A DNA stretch of 64,000 nucleotides from positions 124,001 through 188,000 of the forward strand of contig DAHUXM010000034.1 of assembly GCA_027307165.1 (NCBI GenBank). The letters are read 5' to 3'. The notes beneath the pieces are model-generated. The model saw only the letters and a list, made by a program, of their open reading frames with translations, was not told where the DNA came from and did no database searches. This DNA comes from Gemmatimonadota bacterium. Lineage in GTDB: Bacteria > Gemmatimonadota > Gemmatimonadetes > Gemmatimonadales > Gemmatimonadaceae. This document shows, piece by piece, positions 12,700 to 35,062 of this stretch (the first letter of the stretch is position 1; the number at the start of each line of letters is the position of its first letter). The translations under genes were made by a program, and so were the position numbers.

Positions 12700-13977
12700 T
12701 TACGCGGCGTACCCGCGGACTGCGAGGTTCGGGTCGAGCGTCTTGACACCGAACAGGATGTCGAGCGCGACCTTGACCGTTGAGCTGTCGCCCACATAGA
12801 ACAGGCGGCTCCGGAGGGAGAGACCGGTGATCGGATCCGAGATCGTTGCGATCTTGGCCCCGAGCTGGTTGCCCATGTCGGAGAGCGGGGCCGTTGCGAG
12901 GCAGAAGGCATTCGAGTGGAATGCGATGTTCTGCGTCTTGGCTGCACCACCCAGGAAGATCGTGACGACCTCCGTTCCGGCCGTCGCTTTCTTGAGGCCG
13001 GGGGTGATGGTGATCACGAACGCCGATCCGTCGGCATCCGTCGCGTCGGCCGCGATGTTGTACTGCTGCGGGTCGCCGGCGATCGAGAGGATGTCGCCGG
13101 CCTTGACGGTGATCCCTGCCGTTACAGCCGAGATCGAGATCGATGTCGCGCCGACAGCGTTCGCGCCGTCCACGGTTCCGGTCGAGTCAGCCGCAACGCC
13201 CGAGGTGTGGGACGGCGCGTTCTGATTGGCGAAGGTGTCGAAGCCGTACAGCGTGCCGAGCGAGCCGTCGCGGAGACCCGACGCCTGCGGGTTCTGGAGC
13301 ACGGTCATGGCGTTCTGAAACGCCATCTGCTCGTTCGATCCGATCTGCAAGTGCAGAAGGGATTCGTCACGCATCGGAACCTTGTTGTCGAACATCACCT
13401 TCTTGAGCTTCGTGATGTCGGAAAGGGCCGGCGTCGCGGACATCTGCGTGTACCACGGGATCTGCTTGTAGAGCCCGTTCAGCGTCTGATCGACGATGTC
13501 GGCCAGTGCCACAGCTGCGGGTCGGATGTGGTCGCTGATGATCTTGTCACTGGTGAGCGAGAGATCCTTGTCGGTCAGCGAGAACTTCACTTCCTTCCAC
13601 GTATTGAGCGTGATCGCTACGGACTCGGTGGCGAGATTCTGATCGGCCGAGGGAGCGTCAGCAGCTGTGAACGTGGAGGGCCGGCGAACCTGAATCGTAT
13701 CGCCCAACACCTGCGGATTCGGGTTGTAGCCCTTGTAGACTCGACCCGACATACCGAGCGCCTTCTCCAACTGGATCAGCGCTTCCTGGGCGAAGAACGT
13801 CTCGTTGTAGTTGCCGAGCGTGTTGGTTGCGCCCATTACGGCCAAGCCCTTCAGCCCGACAGCCACGCCAACGCCGGCAGATACGCCGGTCGTGAGTGCG
13901 TGCAGGTGTGCGCCGAAGATGCAGAGGATGAGAGCAGGCAAGAGAAGAATCGCCGCCCACTTTAAAGCGTTACGCAT
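12700..13977 (-). CDS. Major capsid protein, P22 coat (gene 5) family, with hydrophobic N-terminal extension
   Basis: From residue 48 the protein follows the P22-type coat pattern: NTLGNYNETFFAQEALIQLE, then VYKGYNPNPQVLGDTIQVRRP, and an inserted beta domain near residues 270-350 with AGDILSIAGDPQQYNI, like the I-domain of that family. The start chosen here (ATG 13977) has GGAG eight bases upstream, whereas the alternative ATG at 13836 (MGATNTLG) has only a weak site. The longer form adds 47 residues with a strongly hydrophobic stretch (WAAILLLPALILCIFG, residues 7-22). The extension is odd for a coat protein; it may be cleaved, or it may serve membrane-associated assembly. The coat call is firm, the start is not. 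Confidence 0.88.
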   Translation of the reverse strand: MRNALKWAAILLLPALILCIFGAHLHALTTGVSAGVGVAVGLKGLAVMGATNTLGNYNETFFAQEALIQLEKALGMSGRVYKGYNPNPQVLGDTIQVRRPSTFTAADAPSADQNLATESVAITLNTWKEVKFSLTDKDLSLTSDKIISDHIRPAAVALADIVDQTLNGLYKQIPWYTQMSATPALSDITKLKKVMFDNKVPMRDESLLHLQIGSNEQMAFQNAMTVLQNPQASGLRDGSLGTLYGFDTFANQNAPSHTSGVAADSTGTVDGANAVGATSISISAVTAGITVKAGDILSIAGDPQQYNIAADATDADGSAFVITITPGLKKATAGTEVVTIFLGGAAKTQNIAFHSNAFCLATAPLSDMGNQLGAKIATISDPITGLSLRSRLFYVGDSSTVKVALDILFGVKTLDPNLAVRGYAA

Positions 13978-14056
13978 GGTGGTGCTCCGTTGAGTGTTGT
14001 TGAGCGGCCGGCCACCATGTGCAAAGGGCGCGTACCGCGATGAGTTTCCATCGACA

Positions 14057-14110
14057 GCCGCGCCCAGCGCAGAACTGTTTACTCCGAATTGTCCGCCGCG
14101 CCCAGCGCGG
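14057..14110. repeat. Two 14-base direct repeats with a GC hairpin upstream of the coat gene
   Basis: The sequence gccgcgcccagcgc occurs at 14057-14070 and again at 14095-14108. The second copy forms a perfect 6-base stem with a 3-base loop (14096-14101 with 14105-14110). They lie in the 176-base space between scaffold and coat genes, which has no other content I can name. No T run follows on either strand, so a simple terminator is unlikely; an mRNA-processing or attenuation element that lifts coat expression is possible. Confidence 0.5.
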
Positions 14111-14153
14111 GGTCACTGCATTACTTCACTGTGCTTGTCCCGCGATCAAAGGC

Positions 14154-14906
14154 TCAGCCTTCGATGCGGAACGGAACCTTGAGCTTCTCTGCTTCTGCTC
14201 TTGCAGCGCGGTACTTCTGCACATCCCGGCCCTCTTCGGCGGTGAGTACGATGGCGCCGTCTCCGCCCTTCCGGATGGGGTTGCCGCCATTTGATCCACC
14301 ACCCGAACCGCCTGCGGGCTGGTAGTAGCGCGGCTTCTCCGCCTTGAACGTTTCCGCGAAGAACTTCTCCACCGTCATTCCCGTTGGATCGCCATCAGCG
14401 TCGTACACGACAGGCTTTCCGGTCTTTTCATCGAGCTTGATGCGCCCCTTGGCCTTGACCAATGCAGCTACATCCTCCACATCCTCAGGCGTGACCTTGG
14501 CCTTCGCGCATGCGTCGCGAATGGCGATGTCGAGCTTCAGGTCGTTCAACTCCTGCGCGCGCTCCTTGAGAGACTGGTTTTCCTTCACCACCGGGTCCAA
14601 CGCCTCTGCGACGCGCTTCGCCGTAATCTTCTCGAAATCGCCCGCCTTTTTCTGGCGCTCCTCTTCGGTTTCCTGGTGCTGCCTGAGCAGCTCCGCAACG
14701 TCTTCCGGCTTCCGGTCACCGATCACGGCCTTGAGGCGGTCGCGCTCTTCGGCGGCTGCCTTCTTCTCAGCGAGTAGAGTGCGCTGACTCGCTTTCAGTC
14801 CGGCGACATCGGAGTCGTCTGGAACCCACTTGCCTTCACGCTCGATGTATCCACCGCGAACGGCTTCGGGTACATCTTCGGCCTTCTCAAACGTTGGGAG
14901 CGGCAT
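14154..14906 (-). CDS. Capsid scaffolding protein (250 aa)
   Basis: Placed between portal/head genes and the coat gene. Residues about 35-130 are almost purely helical and charged (KASQRTLLAEKKAAAEERDR, ENQSLKERAQELNDLKLDIA), giving a coiled coil, followed by a Gly-rich hinge (GGSGGGSNGG) and a short helical C-terminus that would touch the coat protein. Length and layout are those of scaffolds that are absent from the finished head. A good ribosome site (AGAGGAA) lies before ATG 14906. The 143 bases upstream of it (14907-15049) hold no supported gene. Confidence 0.83.
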   Translation of the reverse strand: MPLPTFEKAEDVPEAVRGGYIEREGKWVPDDSDVAGLKASQRTLLAEKKAAAEERDRLKAVIGDRKPEDVAELLRQHQETEEERQKKAGDFEKITAKRVAEALDPVVKENQSLKERAQELNDLKLDIAIRDACAKAKVTPEDVEDVAALVKAKGRIKLDEKTGKPVVYDADGDPTGMTVEKFFAETFKAEKPRYYQPAGGSGGGSNGGNPIRKGGDGAIVLTAEEGRDVQKYRAARAEAEKLKVPFRIEG

Positions 14907-15049
14907 TCATTTCCTCTGCGTAGTGCGGACGCGTTGGGATAATCAGTCGTGGCAGTGGTGTTGCTGCCTCATGCGTCATGATACAGAGCCGTGCAGCGGG
15001 GAAGTAGAGAATAGGGGCAATAATCACCCCTAAAGTCGCACGCGAGTGC

Positions 15050-15364
15050 CTACGCGACTTCGGAACTGGATTCCGACCCACGGCTCCATACGAGCCGGAA
15101 CGATTTCGCGCGGCTCTCCCCGGACGGAGCGGTCTCGATGTATCCGCTCTTGATCAGCGATCTCAACGCCAGCCGAACGGTAACGGCGTCCATGTTGAGG
15201 CGACGTTGTATGCCGATCGCCTTGATCGTGACGTAACGGGCGAATCCGCAGCGCGTGGCGAGGTAGCCGTAGACGGCATGCGCGCTGATTCGGAGCTGCC
15301 TGTCAGTCGCCAAGTCGCGGCCCGCCGGATAATCCAATGGCGGCCGATCCGTATCGACTATCAC
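15050..15364 (-). CDS. Winged-helix DNA-binding protein inside the head operon (104 aa)
   Basis: Start set at GTG 15364, which overlaps the upstream stop as GTGA. The centre looks like a winged helix: AHAVYGYLATRCGFARYV, then TIKAIGIQRRLNMDAVTVR as the helix-turn-helix, and LRSLIKSGYIETAP as wing. Such folds are typical of phage regulators and replication proteins. A DNA-binding gene between the head-morphogenesis and scaffold genes is unusual and may control late genes or be a transferred small gene (a moron). The family is not identified. Confidence 0.65.
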   Translation of the reverse strand: MIVDTDRPPLDYPAGRDLATDRQLRISAHAVYGYLATRCGFARYVTIKAIGIQRRLNMDAVTVRLALRSLIKSGYIETAPSGESRAKSFRLVWSRGSESSSEVA

Positions 15365-16317
15365 GCTGCCATCCCGTTCGCGGGACGCTGGCGGTAGATC
15401 GAAACGCATCTGCAGTTGTACTCAGTATCTCCGGGAATCATCTGACCGTTTGAATACGGCTGATCCCACGGAACGGTATCGCCTTCCATCGCAATGTGGC
15501 TGTCGCGTTCTCTCGAATCCATGACGCCGCGCCACGTCTTCACCAGTCGATTGGGATCGTACACGCCTTTCTGGATCGCGTCCTGCATTGCCAGGTGTTG
15601 TCCCAACTTCTGAGCATCGAGAGTCGCGGTCCGGGCTACCGTTTCGGCATTCTGCGCTATCCGCTTCTTCCGGTACGCTTCGACCATCTTGTCAACCTGC
15701 TCGGGAGTGAGGTCGCCCTTTGCGATCGTTCGGTCGAAGCGTTTATCTCTCAACGTATAGTCTGCAACGCTTCGTCCGTTCTGGCCCGTCAACGCGTCCC
15801 TGAAATTCTGGACTTGCTCAAGCTGGCTCGGCCCCAATCCTACCACTGTCCGCAAGTCGCGCGCGATCGTGCGCGGGCCTACGCCATCCCTCAATCCATT
15901 CTCGACAAAGGCCCGTACCGTCTCACGGACGTCGTTCTCGAGATCGCCCACGACCTTTGTTTCAAGCGATCGGATTCCATCTATCACGTGCGGGCTCAAG
16001 ACGTCGAACGCGATCGTAACGCCGGGCAACGTCGCGGGGATGGCTATCTGCTTCGCGTAGTAGGTGACCGACTGGCCCACTGACCTTCTGATCTGATCAC
16101 GTACGGGCTGGAATGCTGTGTCCATCAACGCCTGCCTTAGAGCCGCGTCCAATAGAGCGTCCAGATTGCCGGTCGAGATGATGCGGGCGAGCTGAGACTC
16201 GGACAGCGATTCGCGGATGAGGCGGAATGCCTTCAAGACCGCAAGCTGAACGTCGGGCTGCATGGAAGCCGCTCTCCGTTGAGCTTTGAGCCAGAATACC
16301 GAGTCTGCGGCGCTCAA
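15361..16317 (-). CDS. Phage head morphogenesis protein (SPP1 gp7 / Mu gpF-like)
   Basis: 318 residues, helical for most of its length. The C-terminal part has the family signature: TWRGVMDSRERDSHIAMEG followed by YSNGQMIPGDTEYNCRCVSI, with the closing CRC motif. Homologues are minor head proteins present in a few copies, connected to the portal and to DNA ejection. Position directly after the portal gene (one small gene between) is standard. It starts right after the TAA of the 90-residue gene and ends in a GTGA overlap. Confidence 0.88.
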   Translation of the reverse strand: MSAADSVFWLKAQRRAASMQPDVQLAVLKAFRLIRESLSESQLARIISTGNLDALLDAALRQALMDTAFQPVRDQIRRSVGQSVTYYAKQIAIPATLPGVTIAFDVLSPHVIDGIRSLETKVVGDLENDVRETVRAFVENGLRDGVGPRTIARDLRTVVGLGPSQLEQVQNFRDALTGQNGRSVADYTLRDKRFDRTIAKGDLTPEQVDKMVEAYRKKRIAQNAETVARTATLDAQKLGQHLAMQDAIQKGVYDPNRLVKTWRGVMDSRERDSHIAMEGDTVPWDQPYSNGQMIPGDTEYNCRCVSIYRQRPANGMAA

Positions 16318-16590
16318 TTAATCCGACCCCGTGATGGAATCTTCCGCGCGTTCCGCCGCGGTATCCTCGCGCGATGCTGCCAGTGTTTCCGGAGTCTCAA
16401 TTCCGATCCCCTCGATACAAGCGAGTTTGATCACCTGTATCGATCCGTAGATCCCTATCGTCTCGACGAATGCGCTACCGGACATCCATGCTGACCTGAT
16501 CTTGTCCCACTGATCGATCCGGCACTGATAGGCGCTGTTGCTCTCTTTCGTGTAGGGCGCGACGTATCCAGCTTCACGCCTCCGCGTCAT
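16318..16590 (-). CDS. Small phage protein between portal and head morphogenesis genes (90 aa)
   Basis: Unrecognised. It begins with a basic stretch (MTRRREAGYV) and has a hydrophobic but not membrane-long segment (GIYGSIQVIKLACIEGIGI, residues 46-64). Its start overlaps the portal stop by four bases and its stop abuts the next start, so the gene is real in context. It may help in portal or prohead assembly (inference from place). Confidence 0.6.
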   Translation of the reverse strand: MTRRREAGYVAPYTKESNSAYQCRIDQWDKIRSAWMSGSAFVETIGIYGSIQVIKLACIEGIGIETPETLAASREDTAAERAEDSITGSD

Positions 16591-18269
16591 GCTGCTTCCT
16601 TCACTGGTTCCACCGGATCACCCTCGACGGGTGCGCCCTTCGCGGGAGCAATGTCCGGCTTGCCCTTGCCGGCCGCGCCCGCCGCGTCCTCGGTATCCGC
16701 CATCTGTGCCGCCAGTAGTTTGAGTGAGCTCAACCGCAATGCGACGTCGTCCGGAAGTTCACCCGTTGCGATGTAGGTGACGAACGAATCCATATCGAGC
16801 CTGTCGGCTGCTACTGCATTCCAGAGTACGGCTGCGATCTGCGGATCAACGTGCGGGCTTGCATACGTCGTGTTGATCTTGATCTCGGGAGCCGGAACCC
16901 CTCGGTACATGGCGTGGAATTTCAACGCCTGCTCCATTCCGTCCTGCAATCCTCGACCCACTGTTGCATGGGTCGAGTTCTCCGCCGCGTCGTCAAGCTG
17001 GGCGGCGGTAGCGGTTTCCGTTCCCGACTGCTTACCACGTGCCAGGAACGACATCCCGATGGCTGCCATCTGGTCAACCAGGTCGTCCTTTTCCGCTTTT
17101 GACGAATCCAAGGCTTGTGGATCGGCTGCGACATATGCCGCTTTCGCCTCCGCGTTCTTGGAAACGAGTACCGAGTTCGGCCCGACGTTGATCTCTTTCT
17201 TCCTGCCCGTTTCATCCACTTCCTGATCGAATCCCGCGAGGAAGAGAGTAGGCGCGTGGCACAATCTCATCAGATAACGTCTATCTGATGTCACCTGATA
17301 GTGATCGATGTTGAGCTCTGCCTGCGCGAGTAGAGCAGGATCGCAAACGAACGGGGCTTTGGGCGGGTGGCTGTAGACGATTGCAAGCGGGATCTCGCGG
17401 AAGGGTTTGTGACCCGACTGCAACATGTTGCCACTGTTGATCATGGCGAAGTGCTCGCCTGACGTTCCTTGGGAGTTCCGCTTCTCCCACACCTGAAACG
17501 TGACGCCCGTGTCTTCCAACGAGAGGACCCGGTAACGATCCCTGCAATCGACGCCGAACGTTCCTGATCTGACATCGGTCGGTTCGTAGATCACGACCTG
17601 ACGGACGATGGCCTGACGGGCGTAGCTCTTCACCTGTTCGGCTGAGAGTATTCCCATCGTGTAATCGCGCAAAAGTGCAACCCAGTCGGGAACGTCCACG
17701 ACCCACGAGATGATCCGTTCGGCTGGAACCGTCACCCAGAACGGACGCAATCCAAGAGCTTGTTCGTCTGCCAACGTCAACCCCATTCCTTCCGGGATCT
17801 GTGGAGCGTCCACCAGAATTCCAACGAATCCACCGTTGATTGCTTCCGTTGCCAGTGTCTTGGCGAACACCTCTCCGTGCGTCCCCTTGCCGTCGATGTC
17901 TTCCCAGTCTGCCTTGATCAGTGGATCGGCATCATCTGAGAGTTCAGGAGGCTCTTTGCAGATCATCCCGACAGAGGCTTGAACCGTTCTCTGGTAGTAA
18001 CCTGTTACGTGAGCGATACCGGCCCGAATGGCATACTTGTCTTCCTTCTCAGCCGGCCACTTGGGGAGGTACGTTTTGCCGCGCGCCTTGACCGCTGTCG
18101 ATCCGGACATCAGATCTTCGCAGAGCTGCCTTGCTGCCTGAGCTGCTTTGTATTCGTCTCGCTTGTAATCGGGGCGGCTCTTTGTATCGGCGTCTCCGTT
18201 ACCTGCCGGGATGATCGTCAAGCTATCCGCCGAAGCGGATCCGCCGTTACCTGTATATGGGGTCGTCAT
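16587..18269 (-). CDS. Phage portal protein, DUF4055 family
   Basis: 560 residues. The N-terminal part (YAIRAGIAHVTGYYQRTVQA, residues 79-98, then MICKEPPEL) and the central RPFWVTVPAERIISW and FREIPLAIVYSHPPK segments match the DUF4055 group, which serves as portal in many siphoviruses with P22-type or HK97-type coats. The portal forms the dodecameric ring at one vertex and binds the terminase. The C-terminus is Ala/Pro/Lys-rich and probably disordered. Located 21 bases after the large terminase gene, as expected. Confidence 0.88.
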   Translation of the reverse strand: MTTPYTGNGGSASADSLTIIPAGNGDADTKSRPDYKRDEYKAAQAARQLCEDLMSGSTAVKARGKTYLPKWPAEKEDKYAIRAGIAHVTGYYQRTVQASVGMICKEPPELSDDADPLIKADWEDIDGKGTHGEVFAKTLATEAINGGFVGILVDAPQIPEGMGLTLADEQALGLRPFWVTVPAERIISWVVDVPDWVALLRDYTMGILSAEQVKSYARQAIVRQVVIYEPTDVRSGTFGVDCRDRYRVLSLEDTGVTFQVWEKRNSQGTSGEHFAMINSGNMLQSGHKPFREIPLAIVYSHPPKAPFVCDPALLAQAELNIDHYQVTSDRRYLMRLCHAPTLFLAGFDQEVDETGRKKEINVGPNSVLVSKNAEAKAAYVAADPQALDSSKAEKDDLVDQMAAIGMSFLARGKQSGTETATAAQLDDAAENSTHATVGRGLQDGMEQALKFHAMYRGVPAPEIKINTTYASPHVDPQIAAVLWNAVAADRLDMDSFVTYIATGELPDDVALRLSSLKLLAAQMADTEDAAGAAGKGKPDIAPAKGAPVEGDPVEPVKEAA

Positions 18270-18290
18270 GGGATTGTCGTTTCGGTTGGG

Positions 18291-19679
18291 TTAGCCGATT
18301 GAGTAGTCGGAGATTGACATTCTGTTGCCGCCGGATACCGGGAAGCGGTAGTTCACGTAGTAGCCCAGGGCGTCACTGATATGTGTCAGCTTGGGATCGA
18401 TCTTCTTGTCGATCTCACCCGATCCCCCGTCCAGCGTTCTCACGCCTTCCAGGTCGCGAACGACGTGCGGTGCAGTTGATGGATCGACCATCATCCGAAT
18501 CGTGCCGTCGATCGAACAGGTGCGCGAGTTCATCGCGTTCACCCTTGCACGTTCTGCCGGGTTGCTGTTGGGGACGTAGAACGAAACTCTGTCACCAAAT
18601 CCCTTGAGTCCCTGAGCGGAATCGCCACCCGTGAGAACCTTTCTCGCCAGATCCCAGTCCGATCCCTCGACCTTGGCCGTTCCACGTGCCCCACCCGTTG
18701 CGTCACCGTAGACCTGTACGCCAGCCTCGTGGTCTCGCCAGTCGGACAGAATCTTCCGGCAGACTGCGGGAGTGTTGGAATTGTTCTCTATCCACACTTC
18801 ACCGATCACAGCCGTCCCGATCAGTCCATTCGGGAATGGTAATTCCTGCGCGATCGCAGCCACGCCCGGAGCGACGTTGAAGTCGAGGCAGACGATGAGT
18901 GGTTGGCTCGGATTGTACCGATCACGGAGACGCGCTTTGTTCGCGTCGGTGAACTGGTAGTAGACACGGCCCACGAAGTTGACGAACGAGGCTTCGTATT
19001 CCTGATCGTACGTGAGCGGGTCCAGATCACGCTTGGCCGCGGCGATCTCCTTGGCCGGCAAGATGTCGGCACTCTTCCACGTGTAAGCTCCCCATTCACT
19101 TTCCGGCCCGCGCTCCAACATCTCGGCCTGCGCCTTCGTGAACGTCTCGTAGTAATGGTTTCGTCCCTCCGGCACTCCTATCAGATCACACCAACCATTC
19201 CGATCAGAAAGCGCGGGGCGGACGTTCTCGCCCCACGCCTTTGCCTTCATGTTCGCATACTCGTCCAAGATGCCGCCGTCCCACGGTGATCCTTCAATGC
19301 GCTCGGGTTTGTCGAGTCCAACGACTGAGATTTCGCTACCCGTAACGAGTCGGATGGTGAGCTCCGTTTCCGACGGTGACCCCATCCAAAACTGTTTCGT
19401 CATCGCCTTCAAGTCGGCCCAGTAGATTCGCTTCGCTTGATCTCTGGTCGGCGCGGCCGCGAAGAATCGTGGCGTCTGATCGTGCGCGATGAGCTCGAGA
19501 CGCAAGGCTCTTCGGATCAGCTTCCGCTTGGCTCGCTCCGTTTTCCCTGATCGTCTTCCAGCCGGCACAACGTTGAAGCGGTGCGGACTTGTGGCGTAGG
19601 CCAGCTGAACAGGATGGGCACGTAGCGGCGTCCACCTTCGGGGGAGGGTAGTGTCGATGACCGCGACAGTAGCCGTCAT
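18291..19679 (-). CDS. Terminase large subunit
   Basis: 462 residues. Walker A AGRRSGKT at about residues 40-47, Walker B GGILDEYANMK at about 133-143, and the nuclease part with LIVCLDFNVAPG, VYGDATGGARG and HISDALGYYV carrying the expected acidic residues. The ATPase drives DNA into the prohead and the nuclease cuts the concatemer. The start overlaps the small terminase stop by four bases. Packaging mode (cos or headful) cannot be read from the window. Confidence 0.95.
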   Translation of the reverse strand: MTATVAVIDTTLPRRWTPLRAHPVQLAYATSPHRFNVVPAGRRSGKTERAKRKLIRRALRLELIAHDQTPRFFAAAPTRDQAKRIYWADLKAMTKQFWMGSPSETELTIRLVTGSEISVVGLDKPERIEGSPWDGGILDEYANMKAKAWGENVRPALSDRNGWCDLIGVPEGRNHYYETFTKAQAEMLERGPESEWGAYTWKSADILPAKEIAAAKRDLDPLTYDQEYEASFVNFVGRVYYQFTDANKARLRDRYNPSQPLIVCLDFNVAPGVAAIAQELPFPNGLIGTAVIGEVWIENNSNTPAVCRKILSDWRDHEAGVQVYGDATGGARGTAKVEGSDWDLARKVLTGGDSAQGLKGFGDRVSFYVPNSNPAERARVNAMNSRTCSIDGTIRMMVDPSTAPHVVRDLEGVRTLDGGSGEIDKKIDPKLTHISDALGYYVNYRFPVSGGNRMSISDYSIG

Positions 19680-27085: not shown

Positions 27086-27555
27086 GCTGCCGCCTTCTCC
27101 TTGTTCATCCCGCGCATATTACGCGGTGATTCATGAGGAATACCGAGCAACGCCCTGGTCAGATACACGACGCGATCCCATCGCTTGTCGATCATGTTCC
27201 ACGTACTCGATAACGTCCCGGTTTCTTCCTCGACCATTCGCGTCATCGCGTCGTATGGCGTTACCTCACCATGCGCCACCTTGAACGCGTTGATGCTCGC
27301 TTCATGCTTCGACTCTGCGAGTCTGGCCCTGACGTTGAGCCACATCTGATGTTGCCGTTCTCTCTTCTCTTGCCGCGCCTTGGCGTTCTGCCATTGCAGC
27401 TTTCGTCTGGCGAGTATCAAAGCGTGCGAGCAATCCTTGCAGCGCGTCTTTTTTCGGCGTGCTGAATTCGGCTTTGCGCAGTCGATACACGGATAGTTCC
27501 GCGGTATGTCGTTTGGACGCTTCGCTCTCGGTGATCCGATTACGTTTGCGCTCAC
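27082..27555 (-). CDS. Zinc-finger phage protein with basic coiled region (157 aa)
   Basis: PCIDCAKPNSARRKKTRCKDC (residues 22-42, cysteines spaced C-x2-C-x12-C-x2-C) is a short zinc finger; the next 50 residues are strongly basic and helical (RRKLQWQNAKARQEKRERQH). The layout suggests a nucleic-acid-binding accessory of replication. It lies directly after the DnaB-like helicase gene with ATGA coupling at both ends, so a helper role for the helicase is a reasonable guess. Confidence 0.6.
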   Translation of the reverse strand: MSANVIGSPRAKRPNDIPRNYPCIDCAKPNSARRKKTRCKDCSHALILARRKLQWQNAKARQEKRERQHQMWLNVRARLAESKHEASINAFKVAHGEVTPYDAMTRMVEEETGTLSSTWNMIDKRWDRVVYLTRALLGIPHESPRNMRGMNKEKAAA

Positions 27556-28973
27556 AAGAGCTCCCGGTTGCGATCCTGATTTGCGAGTCGTTCCCGCATC
27601 CGTTGATGAGCTTTGTCGCTACCCAATAGCTGGAAGTCGGGATACATCTTGAGCTTTGCGACGAATGGGGCCGTTCTTCTGCACGCGGCGAAGTTGACCT
27701 CAAGGATCGGTGAAGCCATCGGGTTGTAGAGCATGTCGTTGTAGAGCAGGATCGCGAAATCGGCGTCCTGTATCGGGCCTGACGCTCCCTGCGCGTCACC
27801 TTTCTGCGGGCGCTTGTCGTCCCGCTTGTCGATCTCCTTGAAGTTGCATTGGAAGGGCGCGAACAGGACGACGTTCAATCTTTTCGCCAGCCCCTTTAGC
27901 GCTCTCGTAACGGTGTTGATTTCCTCGTCACCGCGCCGTCCGCGGAGTCCAGCTTGTACGAGTTGGATGTAGTCCACGATCAGAAACGAGAGCGACGGGA
28001 TTCGTGACTTGAGATCCGTGCAACGTGTAAGAACATCACTCAGCTCGGGATACGATTCATCGTCGATGTGGAGACGATCTTCGATCAGATTGCCCGACAC
28101 GAGGAAGCGTTTCCACTCGTCCGTTACGAGCGAACCCCTCGCGATGGAACTGATCGGGATCGTCGCATCCGCCGAGATCAATCTTTCGATTTGCTGGTCA
28201 CGCCCGATTTCAGCGGAGACCTTGCCGCCGATCTCACCCGAACGAATGAGGTTCAACGCGAAGTTGTCGACCAGTGCCGTTTTCCACCCTTTGGGAACCG
28301 CCCCCACGGTCACGAACTCGCTCGGACGGAACCCTTGTGTCACATCGTCAATTTCAGGGAAACCGGTTGCCAGTCCCGGAACGCGCCCCTCGCTCGTCGC
28401 CACTCCGCGGAGATGGATCGCATCGGCTACGCGGTCGATGTCGGCCCGACTCACCACTCGGAACCCCTGCTCGCCGTCGTCAACCGCGATTGGTAGCGTG
28501 TCGGCCTGCAACTGTCTCGCTATCTCGTCAGGCTCCGCATCTTCCCGCATAGCCATCATCCGGGCAGTGTCGGCAGCCTTGATCAGCTGCCGGCGTTGCG
28601 CGTGACGGTGGACGATCTTGGCGTGATGTTCGACGTTTGCTGCACTCGGTACGACTTCGATCAGGTACGCCAGGTATTCCCGCCCTCCCGTCGCTTCCAG
28701 CGTTCCCGACCGCTCGAGCTCGGCGACGATCGTCAACGGATCGACTGCAATATCCTTCGCGTGGAGCGTCAACATCGCGTCGAACATTCTCTTGTGCGCG
28801 GCGTTGAAAAACGCATCCCTGTCCAAGGTCTTTGAGACCGATGGGATCACATCCGGATCGCAGAGCATCGCCGATAACACGGCCTGTTCGGCGATTTCGG
28901 AATACGGGAGTGCTGTATCGGGTCGAGTTGCTACCGGGTGGGAGCTTGGGATGTGGGCAATAACGCTCGTCAT
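27552..28973 (-). CDS. Replicative DNA helicase, DnaB-like, with an altered P-loop
   Basis: 473 residues with start at ATG 28973 (ATGA overlap); a longer frame to 29066 is not favoured. N-domain: EQAVLSAMLCDP and YLAYLIEVVPSAANVEHHA, the standard DnaB N-terminal pattern. The RecA-like domain begins with PGLATGFPEIDDVTQGF. The P-loop reads GAVPKGWKT (residues 224-232): Trp230 replaces the Gly that normally precedes the Lys. The catalytic Glu region is SAEIGRDQQIERL, and Walker B is LSFLIVDYIQLVQ. The final domain has VVLFAPFQCNFKEIDKRD. Family identity is firm; whether the odd P-loop still works is open. No loader of the DnaC type is seen. Confidence 0.88.
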   Translation of the reverse strand: MTSVIAHIPSSHPVATRPDTALPYSEIAEQAVLSAMLCDPDVIPSVSKTLDRDAFFNAAHKRMFDAMLTLHAKDIAVDPLTIVAELERSGTLEATGGREYLAYLIEVVPSAANVEHHAKIVHRHAQRRQLIKAADTARMMAMREDAEPDEIARQLQADTLPIAVDDGEQGFRVVSRADIDRVADAIHLRGVATSEGRVPGLATGFPEIDDVTQGFRPSEFVTVGAVPKGWKTALVDNFALNLIRSGEIGGKVSAEIGRDQQIERLISADATIPISSIARGSLVTDEWKRFLVSGNLIEDRLHIDDESYPELSDVLTRCTDLKSRIPSLSFLIVDYIQLVQAGLRGRRGDEEINTVTRALKGLAKRLNVVLFAPFQCNFKEIDKRDDKRPQKGDAQGASGPIQDADFAILLYNDMLYNPMASPILEVNFAACRRTAPFVAKLKMYPDFQLLGSDKAHQRMRERLANQDRNRELL

Positions 28974-29950
28974 GCTGCCACCCCAGGCGCGTCCTGAAGC
29001 AGTTTCGCAACCCTCTCCTCGTACCGGGCCGACTCGCCCTGCTTCATGCCTCGTAGCGTCATCCACGGGGCCACAATCCGCAGCTCTCGCTTGACTCTCT
29101 CGGGGTCTTTGATCTTGTGCTCGGCTGCCAGCTCATCAATTCGTGCGTCGTGCTGCTCGATCGGCAAAACCTGCGAGAATCCGTGTTCGACGTAGAACCT
29201 GATCAGACGGGCGGCGTAGGCTGTGGGATTCTGCGCCTTTGCATCACGGCTGGCACCCCCGAACGTCGCGGTGAACTTGGGTAGCGAGAGGAATTGCGGT
29301 TTGGTGGCGCGGAGGTACACGCCCAATTCGGCGGCAACCCGCTCGATGCCGAACTTGTCGACGATCGATGACAGCATCTTGGCTGCACCCGTTGGGGCTT
29401 TCGCTTCGGGAAACACTTCGGCCCATACCCGATTGATCTCTGCCATCCACGGCGCGGGCTTGCCCCGCGTCCGTCCCGAAGGGGTAGGGGTTTGTTGTTT
29501 GTTCTTAGTTGGTAATGGAGTAGGTAACGGAATGCTTTCGTTCGGCTTTACGTCGGCTTTGCCGATTGAAAGCTCCGGCTTTTCCGAATTAAAGCCGCCG
29601 CTTTCCGTTTCATTACCTACGGCTTTCGCCGGACGGCCTCCTTTCTTGCCGTTCTCGGACATCTTCTGGCGGTATTCTTCCTGCTTGGCGCGCTCTTTTT
29701 CGAGGCGTTCGTTGAACCATCGGCCATCCCTGCAAGCGAAGCATTCTTGCACTACGGGCCATGCACGGACCAGAACCGATTTCTTCACGCGACACCAACG
29801 TGCGAGCGTCTCGATTTCGTACAAAAATCCGTGCTGATTCCAATCCAAACACAGCAACCAGATGTAAACGTGCGTCTGTTCAGGCGTCATAAGCCCCGGC
29901 TTTCCGCCCATGTAGTCATCGGGGTAAAACTGGAAAGCGGGAGACTTCAC
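28970..29950 (-). CDS. Replication initiator-type protein, DUF1376 domain (326 aa)
   Basis: Start GTG 29950 (GTGA overlap). Residues 1-90 match DUF1376: SPAFQFYPDDYMGGKPGLMT, then YIWLLCLDWNQHGFLYEIET, a winged-helix module typical of phage O-like replication proteins. A Lys-rich helix (EEYRQKMSENGKKGGRPAKA) is followed by a disordered Pro/Thr part and a helical C-domain (about residues 165-315). The gene is directly upstream of the DnaB-like helicase, as for initiator-helicase pairs. Confidence 0.82.
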   Translation of the reverse strand: MKSPAFQFYPDDYMGGKPGLMTPEQTHVYIWLLCLDWNQHGFLYEIETLARWCRVKKSVLVRAWPVVQECFACRDGRWFNERLEKERAKQEEYRQKMSENGKKGGRPAKAVGNETESGGFNSEKPELSIGKADVKPNESIPLPTPLPTKNKQQTPTPSGRTRGKPAPWMAEINRVWAEVFPEAKAPTGAAKMLSSIVDKFGIERVAAELGVYLRATKPQFLSLPKFTATFGGASRDAKAQNPTAYAARLIRFYVEHGFSQVLPIEQHDARIDELAAEHKIKDPERVKRELRIVAPWMTLRGMKQGESARYEERVAKLLQDAPGVAA

Positions 29951-31971
29951 GCAGCCATGACCTCGCGCTCGACGCTGTAATTTGCCGCGACTATCGCTGC
30001 AGCCATGTCCGGGCAAACGCTATTGCCGATCATCCGGACCTGCGCCGTCTTGTTCATCGCGACACGGTCGCCTGTGTTCGGATCGATCCCGTATTCGAGG
30101 ATGTATGCGTCGTTAAAGCCTTGCGCGCGGGCGAGTTCGCGCGGCACCAACATCCTCATCCCGATGTCGGTGATGACGTATTCCGCGCCTTCGACCGTCA
30201 CCAGCCCAAACCGCTCCTTGCTCGTCACTGTGCGCATTGGATCGAACAGCGTCGCGCCCTCTTTTTCATTGCCGTAATAAACAGCGAGGAAGGCCGCTAC
30301 CTCGCGTGTGTGGCCCGGAACGCCGCCGTCTTCGAGACGCCGAGCGTTGCCGCGATCGCCTGATACGTCAGGCCCCGCGTGCGCAGACCCTTCGCTCTCC
30401 GCGCGATTGCGGCGGGAATGTTCGTGCGTGAACGCAGCCCGGTTCTGTATGCGTGGAGCTGATTCTCGCTCCGCGTGACCAGTTCCAGGTTCGCCGGAGA
30501 GTTGTCTGTCTTCACTCCGTTCCGATGATTGGGCTCCATACCGTCCGGAATCGGACCGCGCAGGATCGTCCACACAAGGCGGTGCGCCCATACGAGATGC
30601 TGCCGGGAGTCCAGACAGACCTTGACGAGCAGATACCCGCTCTTCGCGCGCGTCTCGACTCGCCTCGGTGCTGCGAGTGACATGGTGTTCATGTTCCGGA
30701 GTTTCCATACGGTGCCGTCCGGTCGCACCTCGATCACGCCCATCCTGACAAGAGTCAGCGCGGCTTCCATCGCTTCCATGTGTGTGCTCCAGTGTTGCTG
30801 TAACGAGTGAGTGATGATCGACTGATGTGACAGTGGCCATCGGCAAGTCGAGTTGTGATCCCACCACGCCGGTGTAATGTTTCGCGAGGAATGCAGCCAC
30901 CAGCGCGTGCTTGCCGCCGCCACCAACTACGGTCCCGAGCGGTTGGTGCAGGTCGAGCGAGCGCGGCGACTGGCCCGCTCCGTTGTTCCGGTGCTTGTCC
31001 TCGCCGTATCCGGTCTGGATCAGCGTCGGCGCGATGAGCGCTCTTTCGCCGCGGTGCGCCCCCGTGATGGTCGACATCGGGGCTTCGAGCGATTCAATGC
31101 GGTCCGACCCGTGATGCGTCAGCGGGACGGCGTAGGGTGTGACGACCATATGGTGCCCGCCAGTCGTGACGGTGGGCAATGGATCCGTAATGCTCGTTGC
31201 TGCGTGGCCGCTCGTATTCACCACGATGAAGGGGCGCGGCGATTCGATCACATACCGGCGGATGCCACGCGCGATGCGCCGGAGCGTGTTCTCCGCGAGT
31301 GGCTTCTTGCGCTCGAATATCGACGGACACGGAATCGACCAGTCGATGCACTCGGCTGCGGTGCGCCACGGGAGCGCGCGGCCCTTGCCATGCGTCGGCT
31401 TGGGCCACACGATCGGCTGACCGTCGCGACGGGCAATGAGGAACAAACGCTTCCGGATCGTCGGCGCACCGTAGTCGCAGGCCCTCAGCTCGCGATGCTC
31501 GACGACGTAACCGAGCCGGCGAAGTCTTGCGGTAAAGCGGCGGAACGTATCACCACGACGCAACTTGTCCGGCATCCCATCAGGGCCGAGTGGCCCCCAC
31601 GTCTGGAATTCCTCGACGTTCTCCAACACGATCACGCGCGGACGCACGGCCTTCGCCCACCGACAGGCGACCCACGCCAGGCCGCGAATCTTCTTGGATA
31701 CAGGCTTGCCGCCCTTGGCCTTGCTGAAATGCTTGCAGTCTGGTGACAGCCACATGAGGCCTACCGGACGACCCGCGCATGCTTCGACGGGATCGACGGC
31801 CCAGACATTCTCGCAGTAGTGCTTCGAGTCCGGATGGTTCGCCGCATAAAGCGCGATTGCTTCGAGATCGTGATTGATCGCGATGTCCGGAGAGCGGCCT
31901 GTTGCCATTTCGATGCCGAGCGACGCGCCGCCACCACCGGCGAACGAGTCGACAATGATCTCGCGGGTCAT
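29947..31971 (-). CDS. DNA (cytosine-5) methyltransferase, interrupted between motifs VIII and IX
   Basis: 674 codons. Motif I FAGGGGASLG (10-19), motif IV SPDCKHFS with catalytic Cys79, motif VI ENVEEF (117-122), motif VIII RKRLFLIAR, and, after the interruption, motif IX RELARAQGF and motif X IGNSVCPDMAAAI. Residues about 398-555 are unlike the rest: polar, charged and full of Arg, Ser, Glu and Gly; they are the alternative-frame reading of an HNH gene placed between 7-base repeats. Without the 474 bases the frame rejoins as LEHTREVAAFL, giving about 516 residues. The target-recognition region is repeated (HALVAAFLAKHYTG and EVAAFLAVYYGN). It probably protects phage DNA from restriction. 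Confidence 0.88.
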   Translation of the reverse strand: MTREIIVDSFAGGGGASLGIEMATGRSPDIAINHDLEAIALYAANHPDSKHYCENVWAVDPVEACAGRPVGLMWLSPDCKHFSKAKGGKPVSKKIRGLAWVACRWAKAVRPRVIVLENVEEFQTWGPLGPDGMPDKLRRGDTFRRFTARLRRLGYVVEHRELRACDYGAPTIRKRLFLIARRDGQPIVWPKPTHGKGRALPWRTAAECIDWSIPCPSIFERKKPLAENTLRRIARGIRRYVIESPRPFIVVNTSGHAATSITDPLPTVTTGGHHMVVTPYAVPLTHHGSDRIESLEAPMSTITGAHRGERALIAPTLIQTGYGEDKHRNNGAGQSPRSLDLHQPLGTVVGGGGKHALVAAFLAKHYTGVVGSQLDLPMATVTSVDHHSLVTATLEHTHGSDGSRADSCQDGRDRGATGRHRMETPEHEHHVTRSTEASRDAREERVSARQGLSGLPAASRMGAPPCVDDPARSDSGRYGAQSSERSEDRQLSGEPGTGHAERESAPRIQNRAAFTHEHSRRNRAESEGSAHAGPDVSGDRGNARRLEDGGVPGHTREVAAFLAVYYGNEKEGATLFDPMRTVTSKERFGLVTVEGAEYVITDIGMRMLVPRELARAQGFNDAYILEYGIDPNTGDRVAMNKTAQVRMIGNSVCPDMAAAIVAANYSVEREVMAA
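30297..30779 (-). CDS. HNH homing-type endonuclease nested in the methyltransferase gene (160 aa)
   Basis: Reads in a different frame within the methyltransferase gene. Starts at ATG 30779 with GGAG six bases upstream. The N-terminal part (WKLRNMNTMSLAAPRR, then GYLLVKVCLDSRQHLVWAHR) is a NUMOD-like strand pattern. The HNH core is VWAHRLVWTILRGPIPDG (His66), MEPNHRNGVKTDNSPANLEL (His85, Asn97) and ENQLHAYRTG (His109). The end (LTYQAIAATLGVSKTAAF, residues 137-154) is a helix-turn-helix. These are the marks of free-standing or intron-borne HNH homing enzymes. Its limits agree within nine bases with a 474-base in-frame insertion. Confidence 0.85.
   Translation of the reverse strand: MEAMEAALTLVRMGVIEVRPDGTVWKLRNMNTMSLAAPRRVETRAKSGYLLVKVCLDSRQHLVWAHRLVWTILRGPIPDGMEPNHRNGVKTDNSPANLELVTRSENQLHAYRTGLRSRTNIPAAIARRAKGLRTRGLTYQAIAATLGVSKTAAFRATHAR
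30306..30786. repeat. 7-base direct repeats flanking the HNH insertion
   Basis: The heptamer gtgtgtg (plus strand) occurs at 30306-30312 and 30780-30786, 474 bases apart, a multiple of three. Excising one repeat plus the enclosed sequence restores an uninterrupted methyltransferase frame. The repeat is simple (alternating GT), so chance is possible, but the fit with the HNH gene borders is close. Confidence 0.55.
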
Positions 31972-32828
31972 GCTGCCACCTTCCTGATTCCAGCATCCGT
32001 TACAGCGCTCAACAAGAGCGAAAGCATATCATTCCCGGCATATGTTCCCTTGGGTGATACCAACGTCGTTTCCTTGCTCGGATAGGTGATCAATGCTGTT
32101 CCTGGTACCGAGAGCAACGCGATGATGTCGTCCAGCAGGATCATCGGCGCGGCTTCCGGTACCATCGGTGGCGCGGTGTACGGCGCGGGAATCTTCGGCT
32201 CGCGATGCGTCGGCAGTAGCGCGACCTTCGGCGCCGGGATCTCGATCGGCTTCGGCCATTCGAACTTCCGCCGCGCGCTTCGATATTCCGGCACCTTGTC
32301 GCCGAATTGCGCACACGCCAAGCGCTGAAGCCCTGGCGGGGCCAGCTCTTCGATCGTCATGCCTTCGTCGCCCGGTGCGTCCACGACCGGTGCCGCTGCC
32401 ACGGGGCGAACCTTGCGAGGTCGTCCGGGTCCACGCTTGACGGTCGGCGCGAAGGGCTTGTACTCGATCTTCTTCCGAGGCACCGCCGTCTGATGCAACG
32501 GATGGACGCAATGCGGGGTGGTGCAACTCGTCCGAATGTTCGCACCGTCTGGTACTTCGCATCGGTGATACAGGATCCACGCAAGCCGGCCAGCGCCGAT
32601 CAGTACCGACCCCATCGTAAAGAGCCCCATATCCTTGTTGATGAGTCCCGCCCACTTCCAACACGCGTTCGGATCATCCGGGGATGGCTGCTCCAACTTC
32701 GATAGGAACTTGTCCAGGACGCTCCGATCTACCGTGCGCGGGCCGTGAGCCTTACGAAGGGTCGCGGTGAATGGCATGAACCCAGCGAATGCGTTTCCGT
32801 ATCCAGTATCAGGGATATTAGAGATCAT
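31968..32828 (-). CDS. Phage DNA-binding protein with degenerate HNH-like zinc loop and AT-hook (286 aa)
   Basis: Start ATG 32828 (ATGA). Residues 56-112 resemble an HNH/His-Cys loop: ACWKWAGLINKDMGLFTMG, RLAWILYHRCEVP and IRTSCTTPHCVHPLH; the fold-forming Cys and His are kept, but the catalytic pattern is incomplete. Residues 131-140 (KRGPGRPRKV) form an AT-hook. A Pro-rich part follows, and the end is a small helical domain. It may target DNA beside the methyltransferases on both sides, or be a decayed homing enzyme reused as a regulator. Confidence 0.65.
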   Translation of the reverse strand: MISNIPDTGYGNAFAGFMPFTATLRKAHGPRTVDRSVLDKFLSKLEQPSPDDPNACWKWAGLINKDMGLFTMGSVLIGAGRLAWILYHRCEVPDGANIRTSCTTPHCVHPLHQTAVPRKKIEYKPFAPTVKRGPGRPRKVRPVAAAPVVDAPGDEGMTIEELAPPGLQRLACAQFGDKVPEYRSARRKFEWPKPIEIPAPKVALLPTHREPKIPAPYTAPPMVPEAAPMILLDDIIALLSVPGTALITYPSKETTLVSPKGTYAGNDMLSLLLSAVTDAGIRKVAA

Positions 32829-35062
32829 GCTGCACTCTCGGACTGCGAAAACAGATCGGTTGCCCGATGCTCGCATGCGTTCGCGAGATTCCGTGCAGCC
32901 TGCCCGAAGTACGAACCTTTCAACTCGATCCCGAGGAAGCGCCGGCCTTCTTCCAACGCGACAACGCCCTCCGATCCGATGCCCGCGAACGGAGATAGAA
33001 CAACGTCGCCCGGATTCGACCACAGCATCAACGCGCGCCGGATCACTTCTAGTTGCAGCGGGCAGATGTGCCGTTCGTCTGCGTTCTCTCTGGCGCTCCG
33101 GTATTGGAGTGTGTCTTGTGGGTCAATGTCCATCCAGACCGGACTCGCGTAACGCTGCCAGAGCGACACGGGGAATTCTTCCGGCGTGTGGCTGATTGGT
33201 TCCGCGTTCTCGCCCGGCTTCCGCATCGTCACCAGATAGTCCGCGATGCCCTGGCGGGACATTGACGAATCTTTCCGGATCGTCTTGTGCAAGAGCCCAA
33301 GCGCTTTCGTGCGCTGCATTGCGGTTACCGGGTCTTTCCAGATCGCCACTTCGGAGTGGTATACGAACCCCACTCCCTGAAACGACTTGATTAGCTGGCC
33401 CCGGAAATCCGTCAGTCCGATCACGCCATCCCGCGCCTTGCTCGTGGGCAGGTTCATGCAATGGAACGACACGAGTCTGCCCGGCTTCAGGACGCGATAC
33501 AGCTCCTTTATCACGAACGCGAAGTGCGCGAAGAACGTCCCGTGATCCAGACAGTTCCCCAGGTCTCTATCACTCGCCGAATACGTGTAGAGTGACGCGA
33601 AGGGGGGCGAGAATATCGAGAAATCGACCGATGCGTCGGGCTGCTCTCGCAACACTTCCACGCAATCGCCGCGGTAGAGCGTCCATCGGTCGCCGCGTTC
33701 GTCCTGCTTCACGTCGCGCACGTATTCGTCAGACGTTCGGACTGATCCCTGTATCGCTTCACGCGATAACTGGCGGGTGTGTTCCAGCATCGACGTTGCC
33801 ATTCGTTCGGCGTCCGCCTCCTTGCGCCTAATGTTGGCGACTACGGCCCCTTCCGTCTCGGCTGTGATGCAATGCACCGTGACGGGTTCGGTCTGACCGA
33901 AGCGCCAGCAACGACGGACGGCTTGGTAATACTGTTCCCATGAATCGGAGAGGCCCACAAAGGCCATCTGGTGGCAATGCTGCCAGTTCATTCCGAACCC
34001 GCAGATTGAGGGCTTGCTTATCAGAACGCGGATGTCACCCCGCGCGAATGCCAGCATCGCAAACTCTTTCTTGTCGGCTGGATCTGATCCCGTGACTTCG
34101 ACGGCATCCGGTATCGCTTTCGTGAGCGCTTGACTCTCGCTGTTCAACTGGCACCAGATGATCCATGATCCAGGTGTGTTGTTTACCAGTTCGGCACAAG
34201 CGTCTACGCGCTCGGATATTGATGCGCGGCGGGCTTTGATCCTCTCCTGTAGCGTGGATGCCGGGGTCGCGAATAGCTCGCCATCAGACGGTGGTGCATC
34301 CACAACAACAGAGCGAACGTCGCACGGCGGCAGTTCGTAACCTTCGTCACCATAACCAAGGTCAGAAGGCTTGCGGATCATTACGGCCCATGATGTGATC
34401 CACTTCCAGAAGTCGGCTTCCGCGTGACCTTTCAGTCGCCAGTTCTGTGTTTCTCCGCCGTCATGGATGAAGAACGTCGCCAGCATTTCGGCGCGGCTCA
34501 TGATCCCTAGAAACTCTGCGTGCGTCCCCAACTCCATGAAATCGTTCGGGGCGGGAGTAGCCGTGCAGCACAAACGGTAAGGTGTGTTGCGGAACGCCTC
34601 GGTCAGCATCGTCCGCGTCGCGCCGTCGAACGATTTCAGGATCGAGGATTCGTCCAAGACAACACCGTCGAAGTCCGCAACATCGAACGAATCCAATCGC
34701 TCGTAATTCGTGACGGTAATGCCGTCCTGTATCTCGCTCGCGTTCCGTGCGTAATGCGCGGTAATGCCGAAGCCGGGAGCCTGCGCTACTGTCTGTTGAG
34801 CAACAGCAAGGGGCGCCAGCACCAAGACGCGCCCTTCTGTGGCTGCCATGATCTGACGCGCCCATTCGAGCTGGATCGGCGTCTTGCCCAATCCGCAATC
34901 GGCGAACACGGCAGCGCGCCCACGACGCAACGCCCACGACGTTATGTCAGCCTGAAACGGAAACAGTGGAGCGGTGAAGTCTGATACTGAATCGAGGCCG
35001 GTAGCGGGACACGCCGGCACCTTCGATGCGAGGAAGTCAGCGTAATCGAGTGTAGCGCTCAT
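32825..35062 (-). CDS. Helicase-DNA methyltransferase fusion protein
   Basis: 745 residues. Residues 1 to about 440 are an SNF2-type helicase: Walker A FADCGLGKT (53-61), DEAD-box equivalent GVVLDESSILK, motif III CCTATPAPND, and motif VI FGMNWQHCHQMAFVG with QAVRRCWRFGQ. The C-terminal part (about 465-745) is an N4/N6 DNA methyltransferase of the beta class order: catalytic motif IV IFSPPF first, and the AdoMet site LSPFAGIGSEGV near the end. No nuclease domain is seen. Such phage fusions are known; the helicase may move along DNA to methylate it and block host restriction (inference). Confidence 0.88.
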   Translation of the reverse strand: MSATLDYADFLASKVPACPATGLDSVSDFTAPLFPFQADITSWALRRGRAAVFADCGLGKTPIQLEWARQIMAATEGRVLVLAPLAVAQQTVAQAPGFGITAHYARNASEIQDGITVTNYERLDSFDVADFDGVVLDESSILKSFDGATRTMLTEAFRNTPYRLCCTATPAPNDFMELGTHAEFLGIMSRAEMLATFFIHDGGETQNWRLKGHAEADFWKWITSWAVMIRKPSDLGYGDEGYELPPCDVRSVVVDAPPSDGELFATPASTLQERIKARRASISERVDACAELVNNTPGSWIIWCQLNSESQALTKAIPDAVEVTGSDPADKKEFAMLAFARGDIRVLISKPSICGFGMNWQHCHQMAFVGLSDSWEQYYQAVRRCWRFGQTEPVTVHCITAETEGAVVANIRRKEADAERMATSMLEHTRQLSREAIQGSVRTSDEYVRDVKQDERGDRWTLYRGDCVEVLREQPDASVDFSIFSPPFASLYTYSASDRDLGNCLDHGTFFAHFAFVIKELYRVLKPGRLVSFHCMNLPTSKARDGVIGLTDFRGQLIKSFQGVGFVYHSEVAIWKDPVTAMQRTKALGLLHKTIRKDSSMSRQGIADYLVTMRKPGENAEPISHTPEEFPVSLWQRYASPVWMDIDPQDTLQYRSARENADERHICPLQLEVIRRALMLWSNPGDVVLSPFAGIGSEGVVALEEGRRFLGIELKGSYFGQAARNLANACEHRATDLFSQSESAA

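Follow-up and report, generated by a model that had tools for sequence, protein, structure and literature searches.

An HNH endonuclease gene nested out of frame in a prophage C5-cytosine methyltransferase gene that stays open across it, most simply by chance

How can a gene for one enzyme carry a second gene in a different reading frame and still be open from end to end? The question is raised by a phage C5-cytosine DNA methyltransferase (MTase) gene (positions 29947-31971, minus strand) in a 64,000-nucleotide stretch of DNA from a Gemmatimonadota bacterium, hereafter the window (GenBank assembly GCA_027307165.1, contig DAHUXM010000034.1, positions 124,001-188,000). As the initial annotation had described, the open reading frame (ORF) of this gene, 674 codons long with the insert included, runs unbroken across 474 bases (30306-30779, minus strand; ends putative) that encode an HNH endonuclease in another frame. 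We are fairly confident that a bare, I-HmuI-like HNH gene has inserted into a prophage MTase gene, neither an intron nor an intein being detectable around it, that the MTase is translated through the insert, and that the frame across it is open by chance.

The identity of the host gene as a phage C5-methyltransferase was confirmed by a Pfam match (E 9.9e-28) to PF00145, the family of C-5 cytosine methylases, and by PHROG DNA-methyltransferase families that match on both sides of the insert, phrog_116 over residues 1-668 and phrog_23072 with its best stretch at residues 553-673. The portion preceding the insert (30787-31971, minus strand; residues ~1-395) comprises the catalytic core and a repeated target-recognition region, as delimited by an alignment of 39 sequences (alignment A1) and an AlphaFold2 model. 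The portion following it (29947-30305, minus strand) contains VAAFLAVYYG..., RELARAQGF and MIGNSVCP and is recognized by its identity to relatives, residues 553-671 being 61-65% identical to genomes G157 (locus L093), G042 (L094) and G262 (L208). Conserved MTase residues are intact in both flanks, and neither a frameshift nor a stop is found by ORF reading, Pfam or alignment A1. Because major head, portal and terminase genes lie within 12700-19679 of the window and genes for a primosomal-like protein (28970-29950) and a DnaB-like helicase (27552-29066) lie downstream of the MTase, the host gene most likely belongs to a prophage.

The nested HNH gene (30297-30779, minus strand) comprises 160 codons and a stop, 483 bases in all, from an ATG at 30777-30779 to a TAG at 30297-30299; counted in bases along the MTase gene, it begins at offset 1192 and is thus read in the +1 frame (offset 1). 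Its final codons and stop lie in or past the right-hand copy of a short repeat discussed below, the TAG being an out-of-phase reading of the downstream MTase codons GTA GCG. The encoded protein matches HNH_3 (PF13392, E 5.2e-18) at 30459-30593 on the minus strand (residues 64-108 of the 161-residue query) as well as HNH families in PHROG (best E 1.1e-27). AlphaFold2 predicts a C-terminal helix-turn-helix of three helices at residues 123-158 of 160 (30306-30413, minus strand), with block mean pLDDT of 83-97 over residues 121-160, and relatives such as those at loci L087 and L125 align through the C-terminus, some extending a few residues beyond it. Since the C-terminal helices are modelled and relatives align to the end, the HNH protein seems to include the residues at the insert's right edge. 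The top solved fold retrieved by Foldseek for the predicted model is I-HmuI (1u3e; E 5.6e-4, probability 1.00), with which it shares both an HNH fold and a C-terminal helix-turn-helix; a sequence search of the PDB at E up to 0.1 returned no relative. The I-HmuI gene lies in a group I intron, whereas none was detected around the window's HNH gene. The proposal that the HNH gene has its own ribosome site holds insofar as a Shine-Dalgarno-like GGAG (30787-30790, minus strand), read from the sequence, precedes the ATG by 7 bases; it sits among MTase codons of the flank, however, and not within the insert. GGAG is a plausible Shine-Dalgarno element for the HNH gene, whose translation probably begins at its own ATG.

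Where the insert begins and ends is less certain. Removing the 474 bases gives the join LEHTREVAAFLAVYYG, and both this join and an insert length divisible by three agree with what had been claimed. The insert had also been placed between two 7-base copies, and GTGTGTG does occur at 30306-30312 and again at 30780-30786. Random pairs of zones in the window nevertheless share a 7-mer in about 4.5% (30 bases), 15% (50 bases) or 35% (80 bases) of cases, so neither copy is significant, and we rejected the repeat as evidence for the ends; the interval given above is one of several registers that it permits. The nearest relative, L093 (78% identity over residues 1-250), reads TATL-TPHDGGDRREQ-VRAFL where the joined window protein reads TATL-EHTRE-VAAFL, that is, 11 residues between the two blocks against 5, and L071 likewise has 11 residues at this place. 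Alignment to uninterrupted MTases therefore reveals relatives lacking the HNH segment but not the exact loss of residues 398-555, and the insertion cannot be called precise. A right boundary lying further inside the insert, suggested by the likeness of its last residues (DGG...RE) to DGGDRRE of L093, was set aside, because the third helix predicted for the HNH helix-turn-helix is encoded there; the resemblance is one reason why the boundary is given as putative. The site had been placed between motifs VIII and IX; this is correct but loose, the more exact position being where the repeated target-recognition region ends on its C-terminal side, ahead of RELARAQGF. The insertion is thus well supported in kind, its exact ends being putative.

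The insertion site falls in a naturally variable part of the enzyme. We aligned the joined window protein with 151 distinct relatives (166 loci, less 3 representing the window itself and 12 ORFs that were duplicates); among the rows listed, the insert region is built of repeated units, and longer relatives occupy it with extra target-recognition repeats. Within the window, the target-recognition region (30787-31233, minus strand) consists of repeated units of, by eye, roughly 30-45 residues each, and the number of units differs among relatives. A broader survey covered 368 loci (390 less the 22 null-sample and ShiLan/Pacc40 loci L212-L233), 333 of which have an MTase ORF, yielding 262 MTase ORFs that are distinct and full-length; these include that of the window and three distant C5 enzymes (L098, L103 and L210). 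A nested ORF matching an HNH profile was found in one of the 262, the window's own, and in none of the other 261, nor did any of these have an insert-like stretch; 258 also have no unaligned stretch longer than 90 residues, and the long unaligned stretches of the remaining three, the distant C5 enzymes, reflect low similarity. The MTase-frame reading of the insert, searched alone against all ORFs of the 368 loci, matched no other MTase ORF (best other match E 0.017, a short ORF of L043). A similar linker in relatives without the HNH gene, named beforehand as an observation that would speak against the proposal, is thus absent among the MTase ORFs of these loci; records of the phage collection lie outside that search, and 21 of 344 of them align over at least 80% of the MTase query, some of them with the insert region covered (Sansa, at 99%, is one).

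Five HNH matches that only touch an MTase end (L187, L238, L344, L306 and L067) were rejected as nested insertions. At one of these loci (L306:3878-4462), an open frame for a ShiLan-like HNH protein shares 168 bases, measured stop to stop, with the 3' end of an MTase ORF. Separately, a C5 MTase occurs as two adjacent ORFs, which a single in-frame stop separates ahead of the final 73 residues, at L287:1911-3503 and L323:1920-3512, which are on the same contig. The insertion was not found a second time in the genus (4 genomes), family (179) or order (288), the window's own genome being counted in each; among the best matches kept from a scan of GTDB contigs (80 of 171) and four scans of IMG/VR (80 of 394, 9 of 9, 80 of at least 548 and 80 of at least 599); or among the matches listed from the phage collection (best 40 of 344 and best 30 of 834 records). 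As regards homing, the distribution across genomes, GTDB contigs and IMG/VR best matches therefore amounts to one copy.

The arrangement itself is already published. A 2025 study (PMC11855218) describes the ShiLan domain of a mycobacteriophage methylase as an insert that is free of stops in the methylase frame, codes for an HNH endonuclease in a different one, carries no intron or intein signature and is predicted to form a loop in the long protein; it reports Pacc40 gp60 as a second hidden HNH insertion in a methylase, and a 2025 genome announcement (PMC12613952) mentions Applejack as a further case. Within the literature collection searched, out-of-frame or hidden HNH insertions turned up in these two papers only. 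The window shares with ShiLan an HNH gene outside the frame of a phage methylase gene, an open host frame, a segment absent from uninterrupted homologues, the lack of any detected intron or intein, and a low-confidence loop in the predicted protein. It differs in that the ShiLan host, gp65, is an N6/N4 methylase (PF01555) and the window's a C5 enzyme, the two having no significant similarity (best BLASTP E 0.06), and in that the ShiLan HNH protein has CxxC pairs and is read at offset 2 instead of 1; the two HNH domains are remotely alike (39% identity over 57 residues, E 2e-5). According to PMC11855218, moreover, the ShiLan HNH gene starts with GTG and lacks a detectable ribosome site, unlike the ATG and GGAG found here, and ShiLan copies are disjunctly distributed, whereas the window insertion is a singleton in the scans made. 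Pacc40 likewise has a 160-residue alternate-frame HNH-like product inside a methylase gene, but its host, as described there, is a helicase-methylase, its alternate ORF lies at offset 2, and its HNH protein has no BLASTP match to the window's at E up to 10. HNH similarity and frame offset, and for ShiLan also host class, do not indicate shared descent with either insertion. Because MTase class, HNH subfamily and frame offset differ, the sequences indicate that the window case is most likely of independent origin and of the same kind as ShiLan and Pacc40; it is a separate, further example.

Several other explanations of the locus were weighed. One, compatible with the account given above, is that the MTase is dead or dispensable, the insertion being a recent hitch-hiker still to decay and the open frame carrying no meaning. 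The insertion is a single copy with no close relative, its openness can be put down to chance, and PMC11855218 argues that the ShiLan methylase is non-essential, citing close relatives without it. Against this stand the conserved motifs and both flanks of the window's MTase, intact and free of any frameshift or stop; we regard a dead enzyme as possible, though on balance doubtful.

A second explanation, put forward in the initial annotation, is dual coding under selection, in which the long MTase is needed, its frame is kept open across the insert, and both frames are constrained. It draws on the 158 open codons, the length divisible by three, and the conserved MTase residues preserved on both sides. 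When the HNH gene was shuffled among synonymous codons (20,000 times), however, the MTase frame acquired a mean of 1.84 stops and was free of them in 11.3% of shuffles (P = 0.113; 11.6% in a repeat), so that the HNH protein and its codon usage suffice to give an open frame about once in ten. A similar figure comes from other genes. Mechanical ORFs (280, each with 200 codons or more) were taken from the window and from 20 stretches elsewhere in the sampled genome sequence, and of the 74247 segments of 158 codons drawn from them, 6964 (9.4%) are open in the equivalent frame; for the window alone the count is 493 of 11184 (4.4%). Combining openness with a length divisible by three (a factor of 1/3), we infer a chance probability of roughly 1.5-4%, and a coincidence of that size, in a finding picked for its oddness, is weak evidence of selection. 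The published ShiLan HNH gene, likewise open in its host frame, has zero stops at P = 0.018 under the same shuffling, which favours dual coding somewhat; no related copy of the window's insertion was found in which constraint could be gauged. We therefore rejected the open frame as evidence of dual coding, which appears improbable. The open MTase frame is most simply put down to chance, because the shifted frame of a gene with 63% GC has few stops and the length of the insert happens to be divisible by three.

A third explanation is that the gene has become a gene in pieces, its two MTase halves made separately and then assembled. PMC2988022 reviews the insertion of a free-standing HNH gene within the gene of an enzyme, as with mobE in nrdA of phage Aeh1, and the window resembles it in having an HNH gene within a phage enzyme gene and no intron. 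The Aeh1 NrdA host is split in two, whereas no stop closes the first half of the window's MTase and its frame runs through; we rejected a split gene as very unlikely. The weakest candidate is a self-splicing intron or an intein bearing the HNH gene: phage group I introns often carry HNH enzymes of this type, but a search of 29000-33000 against 4227 Rfam families at E up to 1 gave no match, the insert is wholly taken up by the HNH ORF, with no room left for a group I core, and the HNH gene lies out of the MTase frame, in which Pfam recognizes DNA_methylase alone, so that both forms were rejected as scarcely credible, in keeping with the original view that the element resides in neither.

With no intron, intein or split, translation of the MTase gene would by default yield a 674-residue protein, and it is the bare, read-through insertion that we favour. 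Under this account, an HNH homing-type gene of the prophage (HNH_3 plus helix-turn-helix) would have entered the MTase gene at the end of its variable target-recognition region; the HNH protein would be made from its own ATG with the GGAG of the upstream MTase codons; and ribosomes starting at the MTase ATG, which by the sequence meet no stop, would produce an MTase with about 158 unstructured residues. Damage to the host gene may filter which insertions survive. By inference, the HNH gene may also home and be expressed, and the long MTase may be active. The idea that a homing gene sits unspliced within a tolerated frame is plausible and has precedents in print. In the AlphaFold2 model, residues 1-200 of the MTase have block means of 53-97 (at least 80 in 17 of 20 blocks), with lower values in the target-recognition region; residues 397-553, within the insert, have no secondary structure, and block pLDDT is 19-30 over residues 391-560; and confidence returns to 84-93 at residues 611-660. 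The suggestion that the MTase-frame reading of the insert is disordered is in line with this model, which is consistent with a disordered insert and is no demonstration of a working enzyme.

Several observations weigh against the account that we favour. The MTase model as a whole is poor (mean pLDDT 55, pTM 0.51), and the native target-recognition stretches flanking the insert also fall below 50 (residues 331-604), though they contain some strands and a helix, so that low confidence alone does not single out the insert. The HNH model has a TM-score of just 0.44 to I-HmuI, and its residues 1-41 are below 50 pLDDT. Finally, a single copy was found, and its distribution therefore shows neither mobility nor boundaries.

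The genes upstream of the MTase offer some further observations. Immediately upstream, an ORF at 31968-33023 (minus strand) matches HNH endonuclease PHROGs (E 1.7e-9); a Pfam search of its 31968-32954 part returned no family, and it shows no clear relationship to the nested HNH gene (E 0.03). HNH genes are also annotated directly upstream of the methylases in ShiLan (gp64) and Pacc40 (gp59). On the same strand further upstream, a mechanical ORF at 32825-35062, which has about 200 bases in common with the HNH-like ORF, encodes a fusion of Helicase_C and N6_N4 methylase by Pfam, with an SNF2 match below the cut-off, a layout resembling the helicase plus methylase reported for Pacc40 gp60.

A more general idea is that homing genes settle unspliced in phage MTases as a favoured strategy, the shifted frame serving as a harmless disordered linker and both frames coming under selection. 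We consider this rather unlikely; if true, the window would represent at least a third independent origin beside ShiLan and Pacc40, in another MTase class, with another HNH family and in another frame. A separate case in an enzyme class unlike that of ShiLan nonetheless suggests that the recently described out-of-frame HNH arrangement recurs. Where the genome is GC-rich, about one such insert in ten should leave its host frame open, and openness by itself is thus no evidence for dual coding.

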